Below are positions 1 to 26,770 of a stretch of DNA of 64,000 nucleotides, piece after piece. How positions within the stretch are numbered: the stretch's first letter is position 1; the number at the start of each line of letters is the position of its first letter. The notes beneath the pieces are model-generated. The model ran no database searches. It was not told where the DNA came from and saw only the letters and a list, made by a program, of their open reading frames with translations. This DNA is from Pseudochrobactrum saccharolyticum (lineage in GTDB: Bacteria; Pseudomonadota; Alphaproteobacteria; Rhizobiales; Rhizobiaceae), in the NCBI RefSeq assembly GCF_008801715.1, contig NZ_VZPG01000001.1, positions 496,001 to 560,000 of the forward strand, in the 5' to 3' direction. Position numbers and translations under genes: made by a program.

Positions 1-1222
1 GCAGCGCATCTCCTATGTGGCAGTTGATGCCAAGTCCGATCAGGGCTGGCCTGCACTGAAAAAACTCATCAAGACCAAACCGGCGGATATCCGCGCTTTT
101 TATCTTGCCGTCAGCCCGAGCCTGTTCGGTGATATTGCCCAGCGTTTGCAGAGCAATGATCTCATCAGCGATCATACACGCATCGTTGTTGAAAAACCGA
201 TTGGCCGCGATCTGGCATCCGCGCAAATCCTCAATGACACGATCGGCAGCGTTTTCCGCGAAGACCAGATTTTCCGTATCGACCATTATCTCGGCAAAGA
301 AACAGTGCAAAATCTGATGGCGCTGCGTTTTGCCAATGCGCTTTATGAGCCGCTTTGGAACTCAGCCCATATTGACCATGTGCAGATTACTGTTGCGGAA
401 GCTGTCGGACTTGAAGGACGTGCAGGCTATTACGACACAGCCGGTGCGCTGCGCGATATGGTGCAGAACCATATTCTGCAATTATTGTGCCTTGTCGCTA
501 TGGAGCCACCGGCTTCACTGGAAGCCGATGCTGTGCATGATGAAAAAGTTAAAGTACTGCGCTCGCTCACACCTATTACTGCCGACAATGCGCAGGAAAA
601 TACTGTACGCGGCCAGTACCGCGCCGGTGCTTCTGCAGGCGGGCCGGTTAAATCTTATCTCGATGATCTGGAAAGCACTACCAGCAATACGGAAACCTTT
701 GTGGCGTTGAAAGCCGAGATCGGCAACTGGCGCTGGGCAAATGTGCCGTTTTATCTGCGCACCGGCAAAAGACTGGCCGAACGCGTTTCAGAAATCGTGG
801 TGACATTCAAACCTATTCCCCACTCGATTTTTGAAAGCAGTGCGGGGCAGATTATTGCCAATCAGCTGGTCATCCGCCTGCAGCCGGACGAAGGTGTGAA
901 ACAGTGGATCATGATTAAAGATCCGGGTCCGGGCGGTATGCGTCTGCGTCATATTCCGCTGGATATGAGCTTTGCGGATTCTTTTGACGAGCGTAATCCG
1001 GATGCCTATGAGCGGCTGATTATGGATGTCGTGCGCGGCAACCAGACGCTGTTCATGCGCCGCGATGAGGTTGAAGCTGCATGGCGCTGGATTGACCCTA
1101 TTCTGGAAGCCTGGGAAAGCAATGAACAGAAAGTTCAGGGCTATACATCCGGCACATGGGGGCCTTCCGGTTCTATCGCCCTGATCGAGCGTGACGGCCG
1201 CACATGGCATGATAGTCTCTGA
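1..1222 (+). CDS. zwf: Glucose-6-phosphate 1-dehydrogenase, 5' end missing
   Basis: Oxidises glucose 6-phosphate to 6-phosphogluconolactone with NADP (or NAD), the entry step of the Entner-Doudoroff and pentose phosphate routes in the cytoplasm. The reading frame is open from base 2, so the gene starts upstream of the window and the N-terminal nucleotide-binding fold is mostly outside. About 406 residues are visible. The family signature RIDHYLGKE with its substrate-binding His/Lys is present at bases 275-301, and the EKPIG motif precedes it. The C-terminal half is intact and ends with a TGA at 1220-1222. A GTG at 17 is in frame but is only an internal valine. It is followed by pgl and edd in the same direction, the usual rhizobial arrangement. 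Identification is certain; cofactor preference cannot be read here. Confidence 0.97.
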   Translation, partial: QRISYVAVDAKSDQGWPALKKLIKTKPADIRAFYLAVSPSLFGDIAQRLQSNDLISDHTRIVVEKPIGRDLASAQILNDTIGSVFREDQIFRIDHYLGKETVQNLMALRFANALYEPLWNSAHIDHVQITVAEAVGLEGRAGYYDTAGALRDMVQNHILQLLCLVAMEPPASLEADAVHDEKVKVLRSLTPITADNAQENTVRGQYRAGASAGGPVKSYLDDLESTTSNTETFVALKAEIGNWRWANVPFYLRTGKRLAERVSEIVVTFKPIPHSIFESSAGQIIANQLVIRLQPDEGVKQWIMIKDPGPGGMRLRHIPLDMSFADSFDERNPDAYERLIMDVVRGNQTLFMRRDEVEAAWRWIDPILEAWESNEQKVQGYTSGTWGPSGSIALIERDGRTWHDSL

Positions 1223-1375
1223 CGAGACTGGGGATACAATAACCGTAATAAAAATTGAGGTCGGAGCACCGCTAAAAAGGCAGGAAATGAATACCGTCTG
1301 AGGCGGTATTCTGTATAAAGATACAAAATGACTGCGCCACACCCCACATAGGGGTGTAAAGGCGCAGAAACACTG

Positions 1376-2101
1376 ATGGAGACTGACATAACCAATATTG
1401 AAAGGCATGATTTTGCAGAGCCATCCGCTTTGGCGCTGCAATTAGCCGGAACAATCGCGGATCAACTGAATAAAGCAGTCGCGGCCAAAGGACAGGCCGT
1501 ACTCGCTGTATCCGGCGGTACAACGCCGGTACAATTGTTTGAGGCGCTCTCCATGCAGGATGTGGCATGGAAACAGGTTACGATTACTCTTGTCGATGAA
1601 CGTTTTGTAGCGCCGGACAATGACCGTTCGAATGAGAAACTGGCGCGCGAACATCTTTTGCAGAACAAGGCGGCGCAGGCCGTTTTTGTCAGTCTTTATA
1701 TTCCTGCCCAGACAGCCAGTGTTGCTGCGGTCACTGCTGCAAACCGCATTGATGCACTGCCGAAACCCTTTGACGTCGTGGTTCTCGGCATGGGCAATGA
1801 CGGCCATACCGCCTCTTTCTTCCGCGGCGGCAGCAGGCTGGATCAGGCCATTGATCCGACAACCCGTGCTGTTGTGCTGCCAATGCAGGCTGAAGGCGCA
1901 GGCGAACCGCGTCTGACACTTACACTGCCGGTGATTGCAAATGCCGATCTGCTGATCCTGCATATTGAAGGGCAGAAGAAACTGGCTGTTCTGGAAGAAG
2001 CACTGGCCAGCGATTTCAGCGAAGCAGATATTAATCTGATGCCCGTGCGCGCTGTTTTTGCCCATGCGAAACAAGCCGTACAGCTTTACTGGGCACCATA
2101 A
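1376..2101 (+). CDS. pgl: 6-phosphogluconolactonase
   Basis: Hydrolyses 6-phosphogluconolactone to 6-phosphogluconate, the second step after Zwf. The 241-residue product has the normal length for the DevB/Pgl type of the glucosamine-6-phosphate isomerase fold. Visible motifs are SGGTTP at residues 46-51 (phosphate loop), DERF at 74-77, and GMGNDGHTASFF at 138-149, which carries the catalytic Asp/His. The start is the ATG at 1376; no strong Shine-Dalgarno is seen, only a weak GATGGA stretch next to it. It lies 153 bases after zwf and 226 bases before edd, so co-transcription is plausible but a hairpin after pgl may separate edd. Confidence 0.95.
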   Translation: METDITNIERHDFAEPSALALQLAGTIADQLNKAVAAKGQAVLAVSGGTTPVQLFEALSMQDVAWKQVTITLVDERFVAPDNDRSNEKLAREHLLQNKAAQAVFVSLYIPAQTASVAAVTAANRIDALPKPFDVVVLGMGNDGHTASFFRGGSRLDQAIDPTTRAVVLPMQAEGAGEPRLTLTLPVIANADLLILHIEGQKKLAVLEEALASDFSEADINLMPVRAVFAHAKQAVQLYWAP

Positions 2102-23484: not shown

Positions 23485-25656
23485 TTAACCGCTGATCTTT
23501 GAGAAATCAGCAACCTGACCGGTCACCGAGCGGATTTTAGCCAGCAGTGCCAAACGATTGGCGCGGATAGCTTCATTCTCGTCATTGACCATGACCTTGT
23601 CAAAGAAGGCATCAACCGGCGCACGTAACTCGGCCATAGCCGACATAGCCGCTGAGAAATCTTCCTTGGCAATTGCCTCGGCGGCCTTGGTTTCTGCTGA
23701 CTGCACAGCAGAAAACAGTTCCTTTTCCTCTTCATTGTTGAAGAGTGCAGCATCAACATTTGCAGCAATAACAGTGCCTTTTTTCTCTTCAGCACCGAGA
23801 ATATTGGCTGCACGCTTGGTGCCTGCCAGCAAGTTTTTACCGTCTTCTTCATTGATGAAAACGATCAGCGCTTCAAGACGACGCGCTACCAGCAGCAGAT
23901 TATCAGCATCGGCTGACAGTACCGCATCAATCGCATCGTGACGCGCACCTTCATCCTTCAGATAGACCTTGAAACGGTCATGGAAGAAGGACAGCAGATC
24001 AGCACCAACATCTTTTGATGCCAGACCTTCGATTGAAGCCATCGGCTTTTCTGCCTGTGCAATCAGTGCTTTCAGTTCTGCACGGATGTCATTTTCGAGG
24101 ATCAGGCGGATCACACCAAGGGCTGCACGACGCAACGCATAAGGGTCTTTCGAACCTGTCGGCTTTTCATCAATCGCCCAGAAACCGACAAGCGTGTCGA
24201 TCTTATCAGCCAATGCTACGGCAACCGAAACCGGATCACGTGGTACGCGGTCGGACGGGCCCTGCGGCTTGTAATGATCTTCAAGCGCTGTTGCGACAGC
24301 AGCATCTTCACCCTGAAGCAAAGCGTATTTATGCCCCATAGCGCCCTGCAATTCAGGGAACTCGCCAACGACTTCTGTCTGCAGATCGGCTTTAGCCAGC
24401 ACTGCTGCGCGGGCAGTCAAGGCAACATCTGCGCCGACCAGCGGTGCAATTGCCTCAGCAAGCGCCTTGATACGCGCCACGCGCGCACCCTGCGTGCCGA
24501 GCTTGGCATGGAAGGTCACATTCAGCGCATCGAGACGCGCCATACGCTGATCGAGTGGCTTGGCCAGATCAAGCGCGAACTTCGAAGCAGACGCTTTGAG
24601 CTTGTCCATATCCGGCATATAGGCCTGATCGGTATGCCAGAAATACAAGGCATCGGACAGGCGTGCACGCACAACCTTGCCGTTACCGAAAGCGATTTCC
24701 TTGCCGCCGTCACGGGCAGCAATATTGGAGATCAGAATGAACTTGTTCGACAGTGCTTCCGTCTCGCCCTGATTGCGGGTGACGAAGCATTTCTGATTAG
24801 CGCGGATGGTCAGGCGGATTACTTCCGGCGGAATCGAGAGGAACTCTTCCTCAAATTCACCCATCAGCACAACCGGCCATTCAACCAGACCGGACACTTC
24901 TTCCAGCAAGCCTTCGTCCTCAACCAGCTCCAGACCGGAAGCGAAGCTCAGATTGCGGGCATCGGTGAGGATGATTTCCTTGCGGCGTTCAGCATCAAGC
25001 ACCACATGCGCTTTTTCCAGCTTTTCAACATAATCGTCAAAGCGGCGCACGGTGATCGGCTGACCATCACTCATGAAACGGTGACCGCGTGTAGTGTTAC
25101 CGGAGCGTACGCCGCCGACTTCAAAATCCACCACAACGGTTTCTTCGGTTTCAGGACCAAACAGGCAGATGATCGACTGCAGCGGACGTACCCAGCGCAT
25201 CGCACCCGACTGTGCCGAAGCTTTGCCCCAGCGCATGGATTTCGGCCACGGGAAATTCTGCACCACATTCGGCACCAGTTCCGCAATAATTTCTTCCGCG
25301 GCACGTCCGGATTTGGTGATGTGCGCGACATAGAAATCGCCCTTTTTCGGGTCGGAATGCACATGCGCCTGCGCAATATCGCTCAAGCCAGCTTTACGCA
25401 GGAAACCTTGAATTGCGGCTTCCGGTGCAGAAACGGACGGGCCTTTGATATCTTCATGCACGTCTTTTGAGCGCACGGTCAGACCGCGAATATCCAGCGT
25501 GAGGCGACGCGGCGTCCAGTAAGGCGTTGCCGCCTCATAGGTCAGACCGGCCTCAACCAGACCATCGGTGATCATTTTCTTCAAATCACCGGCAGCTTTA
25601 CGTTGCATGCGCGCCGGGATTTCCTCGGAGAACAATTCTAACAGTAAATCAGGCAT
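23485..25656 (-). CDS. glyS: Glycyl-tRNA synthetase beta subunit
   Basis: With GlyQ forms the alpha2beta2 glycyl-tRNA synthetase; the beta subunit supplies tRNA recognition. At 723 residues it has the usual length, starting [17 protein letters not shown] and continuing with the [12 protein letters not shown] and KSMRWG blocks; the C-terminal part carries the helical HD/anticodon-type region. The ATG at 25656 overlaps the stop of a 37-codon mini-gene (TGATG) and has GGAGG ten bases upstream, supplied by that mini-gene. The reading frame is intact, so the enzyme should be functional. Confidence 0.96.
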
Positions 25657-25769
25657 CAGCGTGCGCCCTCCGCATGCTCATTTTTTGTTTTGTCCGTCCT
25701 CACTTCGTTGCGGGCGGACGGCTGTGCCGGAATTTCTTCCGAGAAAAGTTCAAGCAACAAATCAGGCAT
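25656..25769 (-). CDS. 37-residue mini-gene: duplicated head of glyS
   Basis: Starts at the ATG that overlaps the glyQ stop (TGATG, 25771-25767) and ends in a TGA overlapping the glyS start. Its first 15 residues, [15 protein letters not shown], are identical to GlyS, yet 8 of these 15 codons differ, all silently. The remaining 22 residues ([12 protein letters not shown] then a basic/acidic tail) are unrelated to GlyS and are encoded partly by a palindrome at 25692-25719. It may be a leader peptide that couples glyQ to glyS translation, the abandoned original glyS start after allele replacement, or simply a relic. Expression as a peptide is unproven. Confidence 0.6.
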
Positions 25770-26770
25770 CAGCGTGTCTCGTTCTTGTAGTTGACGCCAC
25801 CGGCATCGGTCTGAAGGAAGGCTTCACCGCACTGGCGCGCAAGATTGCGCACACGCAGAATATAGCTCTGGCGTTCGGTTACCGAGATAACACCACGGGC
25901 ATCCATCAGATTGAAAATATGCGAGGCTTTGATCGCTTGATCGTAAGCAGGGAAAACGCACTTATGTAAGCTCCCTGTTGCACCTTCTTGTGGCGCACCT
26001 GCAGCGAGAACCGCTTTACATTCCGCTTCCGCATCAATGAAATGCTGGTGCAGCATATCGGTATTGGCGATCTCGAAATTGTAGCGCGAATATTCCTGCT
26101 CGGTCTGGAGGAACACGTCACCGTAAGTAACTTTGTCCCCACCTTCGAGGCCATTGAAGTTCAGGTCATAAACATTGTCCACGCCCTGCACATACATAGC
26201 GAGACGTTCCAGACCATAGGTCAGTTCACCGGCAACCGGCGAGCATTCAATACCGCAAACCTGCTGGAAATAAGTGAACTGCGAGATTTCCATGCCATCG
26301 CACCAGCACTCCCAACCCAAGCCCCAAGAGCCGGTCGTCGGGTTTTCCCAGTCATCCTCAACAAAGCGGATATCGTGCAGATCGGTATCAATGCCGATGG
26401 CTTTCAGCGAGCCGAGATACAATTCCTGCAGGTTCGGCGGGCTTGGCTTCAGCAAAACCTGATACTGGTAATAATGCTGCATACGGTTCGGGTTTTCACC
26501 ATAGCGACCGTCTTTCGGACGACGTGACGGCTGCACATAGGCAACATTCCACGGCTTTGGCCCCAGAGCGCGCAAAGTGGTGGACGGATGCAGCGTACCC
26601 GCCCCGACTTCCATATCGTAAGGCTGCAAAATTGTGCAGCCATGCTGCGCCCAGTAGTGCTGGAGCGCCATGATAAAGCCCTGAAAAGAGCGGGTCGGAT
26701 GCAGGTATTCAGGCAATGTGCTGGTCACGGAAGGCCTCGTTGGAGCATTCTTGGCGAGATCGGCTATCAA
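25769..26770 (-). CDS. glyQ: Glycyl-tRNA synthetase alpha subunit
   Basis: The catalytic subunit that activates glycine in the alpha2beta2 enzyme. The 333-residue length is slightly above the usual 300 because of an N-terminal extension ([23 protein letters not shown]). Core motifs are present: [32 protein letters not shown] (motif-2-like region, about residues 28-59), [22 protein letters not shown], and [20 protein letters not shown] later start cannot be excluded, since the second Met (in IMAL) lies inside the core but no other ATG precedes it. The stop overlaps the mini-gene start. Confidence 0.96.

Follow-up and report, generated by a model that had tools for sequence, protein, structure and literature searches.

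The element treated here, an insert of roughly 110 bp between glyQ and glyS in a 64,000-nucleotide stretch of Pseudochrobactrum saccharolyticum DNA (contig NZ_VZPG01000001.1, positions 496,001 to 560,000, hereafter the window), resembles several systems that have already been described. Namely, the prophages e14 and 21 insert in icd and, like this element, supply an alternative gene end with synonymous differences, but they are full prophages and affect a 3' end only. Rickettsial palindromic repeats of the RPE type lie in frame within proteins; they are likewise small palindromic insertions tolerated in the genes of related bacteria, yet they extend the protein in frame, whereas the element here stops the frame and restarts the gene. 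Bridge RNA, or seekRNA, chooses its site by base pairing. It is a non-coding part of the IS110 and IS1111 elements which makes this choice, according to the portions of PMC11187229 and PMC11208160 that bear on it; these elements encode a DEDD transposase, whereas the one described here is gene-less and carries a single contiguous complement. Islands at dusA and prfC, in the relevant part of PMC8409611, re-supply the gene end that they interrupt, and the same restoration of an interrupted gene is seen here as with IMEVchUSA3 (dusA) and SXT (prfC); such islands, however, come with an integrase, whereas here about 110 bp hold a hairpin, a short antisense copy of the site and a stop/start hand-over of translation. 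Finally, in IS200/IS605 tetranucleotide guides 5' to palindromes choose the cleavage sites, and a bulge in the stem may be required in REP, as stated in the portion of PMC8266576 that deals with them. REP/TnpAREP and IS200/IS605 share with our element a small irregular hairpin and an adjacent guide-like sequence, but they have a guide of four nucleotides at the palindrome foot, gene ends do not figure in that portion of PMC8266576, and no Y1 transposase gene is associated with our element in the genus compared below. Neither these elements nor the islands match ours in size, length of guide, gene-end cargo and absence of a gene taken together.

On the minus strand of the window, glyQ is followed by an open reading frame (ORF) of 37 codons and then by glyS, and each of the two junctions is a TGATG in which a stop codon overlaps a start codon (coordinates in Table 1). 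Residues 1-15 of the mini-ORF and of GlyS are identical, with silent changes at codons 4, 5, 6, 8, 10, 11, 13 and 15, and the flank CACGCTGATGCCTGATTT is found at both heads. The initial annotation of this DNA, which reported a second glyS head with eight synonymous differences between the two genes, is borne out by the coordinates and the codon comparison, as is its statement that the mini-gene joins glyQ to glyS by stop/start overlap and supplies a GGAGG, which we take to be the ribosome-binding site of the glyS restart. In a scan of the whole window, the two glyS heads form the sole 40-bp repeat at a spacing of 85-199 bp with at least 31 of 40 positions identical, and since their flanking-repeat score is 33, as compared with a highest value of 15 among 200 shuffles (L141), the duplicated head is well beyond chance. 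We believe, with a probability of roughly 0.7, that this mini-gene is a copy of a non-autonomous, guide-bearing, site-specific insertion family of Hyphomicrobiales, which re-supplies the end of the gene it interrupts. Read in hairpin orientation, the common layout is native flank, outer copy of the gene end (O), hairpin, linker, putative guide, a ribosome site where there is one, inner copy of the gene end (I) and gene body, with an element size of roughly 95-135 bp. The hairpin has a single copy in this genome, and a repeat dispersed through the genome was rejected on that count. A terminator inside the insert was rejected as well: no T run follows the hairpin in either direction, and the hairpins at 3' ends are oriented opposite to the gene. 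A comparison of eight element-bearing loci with the known RNA families of Rfam 15 gave just one tRNA and one match below the gathering score.

The evidence that carries this reading comes from computational comparison with other genes and genomes. In particular, a search of six insert-bearing genomes with the core of the insert led to the 5' end of hisF, with three consecutive heads, and to the 3' ends of mmsA and ilvC, and at each of these the gene end is duplicated across the hairpin. Genomes matching the hairpin pattern number 22 of 150 in the order, 84 of 394 in the family and 61 of 146 in a Mesorhizobium-like genus, in tallies that count chance matches and miss decayed copies (e.g. L446-L450); a genome elsewhere holds up to four exact-pattern matches, tandem copies included. 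The hairpin itself was assessed in 90 loci from the family-wide search, comprising 30 that were returned and 60 that were picked, 42 of them because they looked like hairpins by eye and 18 as controls lacking one. These hold 103 pattern matches, 72 of which pair internally and 31 of which cannot, and a flanking duplication accompanies 70 of the 72 hairpin-forming matches as opposed to 0 of the 31 others. The two hairpins with no flanking repeat are the outermost unit of a tandem array (L193) and an apparent chance match (L233). Pattern and flanking repeat together served to choose 100 distinct hairpins, in which 97.7% of the inner-stem cells are paired, with G-C, C-G and A-T exchanged; when the two pattern-restricted pairs are excluded, a hairpin's own arms pair in 97.0% of cells, versus 74.8% for arms taken from different hairpins.

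The targets are glyS, hisF, hisA, cimA and rnhA at their 5' ends and mmsA, ilvC, sdhB, groEL and tRNA-Gln at their 3' ends; one representative per protein target was identified with NCBIfam, the cimA and mmsA stretches being partial and below the curated cut-off. Counted from the start codon, the junction lies at 45 bases in glyS, 46 or 49 in hisF and 43 in hisA; counted from the stop codon, it lies at 40 bases in ilvC and 46 in mmsA. By our own reading, the distance in groEL is 15 from the stop codon, with the duplicated end continuing into the downstream flank, and in tRNA-Gln it is about 12 from the end. At 5' and 3' ends alike I completes the ORF, restoring at the latter the C-terminus or the end of the tRNA. 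The same hairpin and duplicated end at about ten genes, at 5' and 3' ends and at a tRNA gene, lend no support to an arrangement special to the synthetase or to the footprint of a glyS replaced by a relative's allele, both of which had been suggested for this locus. The judgement that this is not a simple recent tandem duplication was sound: the units differ by a hairpin and a guide, these are present at many genes, and simple tandem duplication is rejected for this reason. Neither the hairpin nor the reverse complement of the site, nor the existence of a wider family, had been noticed in the initial annotation. Several targets hold tandem arrays, with two to five ends each. The largest seen is rnhA with five heads in L127 (genome G161, about 1000-1630, minus strand), a 136-bp tandem array of near-identical units and a candidate for recent activity, and in L222 (G281:C43) hairpins at 800 and 1908 mark a hisA and a hisF element 1.1 kb apart, each with its own guide.

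Since islands of the dusA and prfC type replace an interrupted gene end (PMC8409611, in the part already mentioned), one could regard the element as a remnant or miniature of such an island, its interior lost. However, the hairpin core is similar at ten targets, sizes are similar and tandem arrays occur, and neither an integrase nor a large version was found beside the fetched hairpins. An integrase of its own is ruled out by size, since the 113-bp insert (most glyS copies measure 112-134 bp) fits the mini-ORF alone. Phage records gave no match to positions 25560-25800 of the window. Among the 120 viral-contig stretches listed there was no true copy; six of the 80 inspected passed the hairpin rule, and the single flanking repeat among the 120 (L279) lies within repetitive coding DNA and was rejected by eye. 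Ends of tRNA genes are usual sites for islands, but altogether we consider an island origin very improbable.

Filled and empty sites exist side by side among close relatives. Seven genomes of the window's own genus were compared, including G005, which is 61% complete and gave no match to the glyQ-glyS region. G001 carries the same 113-bp insert (a 471-base match at 92% identity), whereas in G002, G003, G004 and G006 the glyQ-glyS overlap is uninterrupted. A check of this junction among relatives had been proposed, with two outcomes that together would tell against a conserved leader: the insert-free junction was indeed found, in four genomes of the genus, while a copy private to this assembly was not. 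Because G001 carries the same insert, an assembly error is unlikely. The patchiness within the genus, where the filled genomes do not form a clade (nine-sequence tree, mixed support), would suit either an assembly artefact or strain-private recombination between two glyS alleles, but the same structure in many genomes and genera refutes both, and we give this explanation practically no credence. Of 80 named relatives' glyS loci, seven contain the insert (Falsochrobactrum L013, Mesorhizobium L022, L025, L027 and L028, an uncultured Hoeflea L042 and Jiella L088), and in the other 73 it was not detected. In these copies residue 9 of O tracks the head of the host: Phe9 in the window's genus and in Falsochrobactrum, Arg9 in these Mesorhizobium, Hoeflea and Jiella. 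After O come the hairpin, an A-rich stretch, in most copies GCATGCGG, and then the restart. Empty sites also exist at mmsA, and there, as at glyS, the native flank next to O in filled genomes stands next to the intact gene end. For instance, the downstream flank which abuts the intact gene end in G561 (L453) abuts O in the filled G550 (L448), as compared by eye, and G559 is counted as empty on the strength of its two overlapping matches. In the mmsA region, L446-L450 and L452 hold damaged hairpins, or hardly more than a guide beside a gene end, and are useful for ordering gain and decay.

Past the hairpin, most elements have a brief stretch that is reverse complementary to the target site in its uninterrupted form, frequently across the junction: GCATGCGGG for glyS, GCCGTGGATC for ilvC, GCACTGGCC for hisA, GCATGGGCG for groEL and CTACCGCCC for tRNA-Gln. 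This putative guide is usually 7-12 nt long. It measures at least 7 nt in 63 of the 72 elements, and in 62 of those 63 it starts 10-17 nt past the hairpin (11-14 nt in 56). The longest match of a spacer to its own site averages 8.4 nt over the 72 elements. Spacers taken from other target classes give 5.1 and shuffled ones 5.0; 0 of 300 shuffle rounds reached a mean of 8.4, the highest being 5.3, and the element's own target class gave the best column in all seven classes. Individual match lengths are 9 nt for groEL, tRNA-Gln and cimA and 7 nt for rnhA, and the window copy shows a 7-nt match, CGCATGC. What is more, among 21 glyS elements, in the finding of which the guide played no part, the guide is the best kept segment, with a pairwise identity of 0.875 as compared with 0.786 for the hairpin core and 0.565 for the linker.

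One could argue that all this arose by a replication or repair accident, in which a single event of template switching at a gene end produced hairpin, inverted site copy and duplicated end together; the guide would be a by-product, and the spread would be due to ordinary exchange of housekeeping alleles. Fold-back copying could, in principle, leave the reverse complement of the site beside a hairpin, no enzyme was found in the loci fetched, and copies per genome are few. Nevertheless, the hairpin sequence is common to unrelated target genes across many genera, the guide is better conserved than the linker, and no second hairpin of this layout is seen among the repeats found in 629 kb, and we consider such an accident unlikely. 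We attach a similarly low probability to a non-autonomous relative of REP or IS200/IS605, which a Y1 (HUH) transposase would move in single-stranded form, using a longer guide. The hairpin does have conserved internal mismatches and a guide-like sequence next to it, but the consensus of the 21 glyS elements lacks a GTAG-like tetranucleotide at the hairpin foot, and the antisense of the site, which lies 5' of the hairpin on the complementary strand, is longer than the IS200/IS605 guide and mostly 11-14 nt away. Many dispersed extragenic copies, as with REP, are not found either, there being one copy in this genome and at most four pattern matches in others; in addition, a gene end is carried here, and Y1 genes show no association in the one genus compared.

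As for that comparison, a Y1 transposase (PF01797) was found in 24 of 144 Mesorhizobium-like genomes; the hairpin pattern is matched in 9 of the 24 and in 61 of 146 overall, a count of our own from two tables for one genus, in which the pattern matches include chance ones. With no association in that genus, a Y1 transposase as the mobiliser was rejected. On plasmids, a composite query gave weak matches; of those fetched, three Paracoccus loci show no flanking duplication and one Caballeronia locus failed the hairpin rule. No description of the element was found in the open PMC literature, as judged from listings; subscription papers and preprints lie mostly outside that literature, so this is weak proof of novelty.

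The 5' copies also hand over translation in a regular way. In all 53 gap-free copies (35 glyS, 15 hisF and 3 hisA, with one hisF and two glyS copies containing N left out), the O frame crosses the hairpin without a stop and then ends at -1 to +8 relative to the restart codon, while the other two frames of the same DNA stop there in 5 and 0 of the 53. This suggests that translational hand-over is selected for, irrespective of the peptide that results. In a set of 37 distinct glyS copies, overlap of the O frame with the restart codon is seen in 33; in two the frame ends directly before that codon or one base short of it, and the remaining two have an N run. The peptide itself is kept to different degrees. 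Namely, O and I differ by 135 synonymous and 10 nonsynonymous codons in glyS (35 copies, with O placed by no peptide rule and L168, whose inner copy is degenerate, excluded) and by 40 and 30 in hisF (16 copies; an earlier set of 17 pairs gave 40 and 28). The corresponding values for mmsA (21 and 12, 8 copies), hisA (5 and 5, 2 copies) and ilvC (3 and 18, 10 copies) are small counts, from which three rows below 70% identity are excluded and of which that for ilvC includes the codon at the junction itself. Between related genomes, 25 non-independent pairs give 141 synonymous and 14 nonsynonymous differences for the O copies of glyS and 85 and 0 for the I copies; for O copies of hisF, 10 pairs give 48 and 20. 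By these counts, the O head of glyS is largely kept as a peptide, with other O copies decaying faster, and the peptide-level constraint that had been proposed for the extra head is thereby confirmed. Such selection on the displaced head may reflect an alternation of filled and empty states, with O as the live head, or else a leader function that it has acquired.

Could the mini-ORF then be a glyS leader-peptide gene, i.e. a conserved regulator coupling GlyQ and GlyS synthesis or sensing translation? The stronger peptide constraint in glyS than in hisF or the other targets would be expected of it, as would the frame overlap at the restart codon; indeed, glyS shows both the conserved peptide and the stop/start overlap that a translated leader would have, whereas hisF and hisA hold the stop position with less of the peptide. 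However, the same structure at hisF, hisA, cimA and rnhA, and also in places that could hold no leader (3' ends, a tRNA gene), is left unexplained by it, the frame of the tail peptide varies between copies, and the insert goes undetected in most named relatives. For these reasons a leader is at most a secondary role, and as the primary explanation we find it improbable.

To return to the proposed family of guided insertions, the family itself, its layout, the frame hand-over and the constraint on glyS are shown by computation, whereas mobility and guidance are inferred. By comparison, the insert sits within the gene at 40-49 bases from its start or stop codon (glyS, hisF, hisA, ilvC, mmsA), leaving O outside while I completes the gene, and since the O frame at 5' ends is open through the hairpin to the restart codon, ribosomes reaching the native start can hand over. 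The following scheme would account for these layouts. The reverse complement would pick or mark the site, that is, the insertion point in an empty gene or the right-hand unit boundary in a filled gene, with I looped out. If the element entered between the two halves of the site that the guide matches and brought I along or copied it in the process, the layouts seen would result, with arrays following from repeated insertion or unequal exchange. The hairpin would presumably be recognised by an enzyme acting in trans, and recombination between O and I may excise the insert and restore the empty gene, which would lead to the patchy distribution. A bolder version of this scheme is a programmable, gene-less homing element, in which an antisense guide of about 9 nt at a near-fixed distance from the hairpin picks the site, the exact gene end that makes the element harmless there (with a ribosome hand-over at 5' ends) is carried or copied, a change of guide and end retargets the element to all ten targets, and the glyS copy is also kept as a translated leader; we offer it tentatively, rating its chances a little below even.

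That said, a number of observations weigh against these proposals. The loci fetched yielded neither a transposase or recombinase nor an autonomous relative, Y1 genes show no association by the counts given above, the hairpin is present in 0 of 30 Y1 loci examined, and no insertion event was observed. In L207 a rare residue, Cys10, is common to O and I, which tends to favour local copying of I over carriage from a donor. The evidence at sdhB, cimA, groEL and tRNA-Gln comes from a single locus each, that at rnhA from two and that at hisA from three, and because elements of one class share descent, the counts are not those of independent events. O is lost in four mmsA units (L378, L389, L404 and one of L410). 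Within the window's genus, the order of gain and loss cannot be read from a tree of mixed support in which the filled genomes are not a clade. As for the guide, it falls below 7 nt in 9 of the 72 elements (L154, L182, L186, one L189 unit, one L198 unit where N follows, L202, L213, L217 and L218), several hisF matches span just the left half of the site, the mmsA class has a mean match of 6.3, and individual shuffled spacers reach up to 11 nt.

If the guide reading is true, the element would be mobile, guided and site-specific at a size of about 110 bp, with a non-coding core that chooses the target and a cargo that repairs it; we know of no smaller one. Its mobiliser would then be a new programmable DNA-insertion enzyme, to be sought in rhizobia and their relatives. 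Even if the elements do not move, the family accounts for a set of mini-genes and repeated gene ends that have been puzzling in well-studied genes; its filled and empty pairs across many species can be used to study gain, loss and translational hand-over.

Table 1. Features at and around the glyQ-glyS junction, in positions of the window.
Feature	Position	Strand	Remarks
glyQ	25769..26770	-	Glycyl-tRNA synthetase alpha, upstream gene; ORF as listed, real start possibly further in
O, outer glyS head	25725..25769	-	15 codons; adjoins native glyQ flank; native TGATG overlap belongs to O
Mini-ORF	25656..25769	-	37 codons, from O start codon through hairpin; stop TGA overlaps glyS restart ATG
Conserved hairpin	25693..25721	-	CCGTCCGCCCGCAACGAAGTGAGGACGGA; family pattern CCCGCARC..loop..YGAGGACG
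A-rich linker	25678..25692	-	
Putative guide	25670..25677	-	GCATGCGG; reverse complement of glyS insertion site, 7/8 nt in window copy
GGAGG	25667..25671	-	Place observed; likely ribosome-binding site of glyS restart
I, inner glyS head	25612..25656	-	Runs on into glyS body
Target site	25605..25611	-	CGCATGC, glyS codons 16-18, guide-matched; insertion junction at upstream edge
glyS	23485..25656	-	Glycyl-tRNA synthetase beta, host gene

Other repeats and insertions were seen in and near glyS. Palindromic-looking repeats lie in frame inside glyS of L023, L025, L031, L033, L054, L064, L070, L074, L075 and L088, among others; they are of the types PISPLVGEM...SPTRGEI and LPLEGGG...PPPQGEG and are located at about residues 293-300, 407 and 584. 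In many relatives (L011-L090), GlyS contains an insertion of 12 to about 63 residues near residue 542 (window numbering), seemingly unrelated between genera, which makes this a hypervariable point in an essential enzyme. Finally, upstream of glyS in Rhizobium tubonense (L075, about 1764-1990), there is a pair of repeats 187 bp apart with palindromes of the CTCCCCCTTGAAGGGGGAG type, which belongs to a different repeat family.

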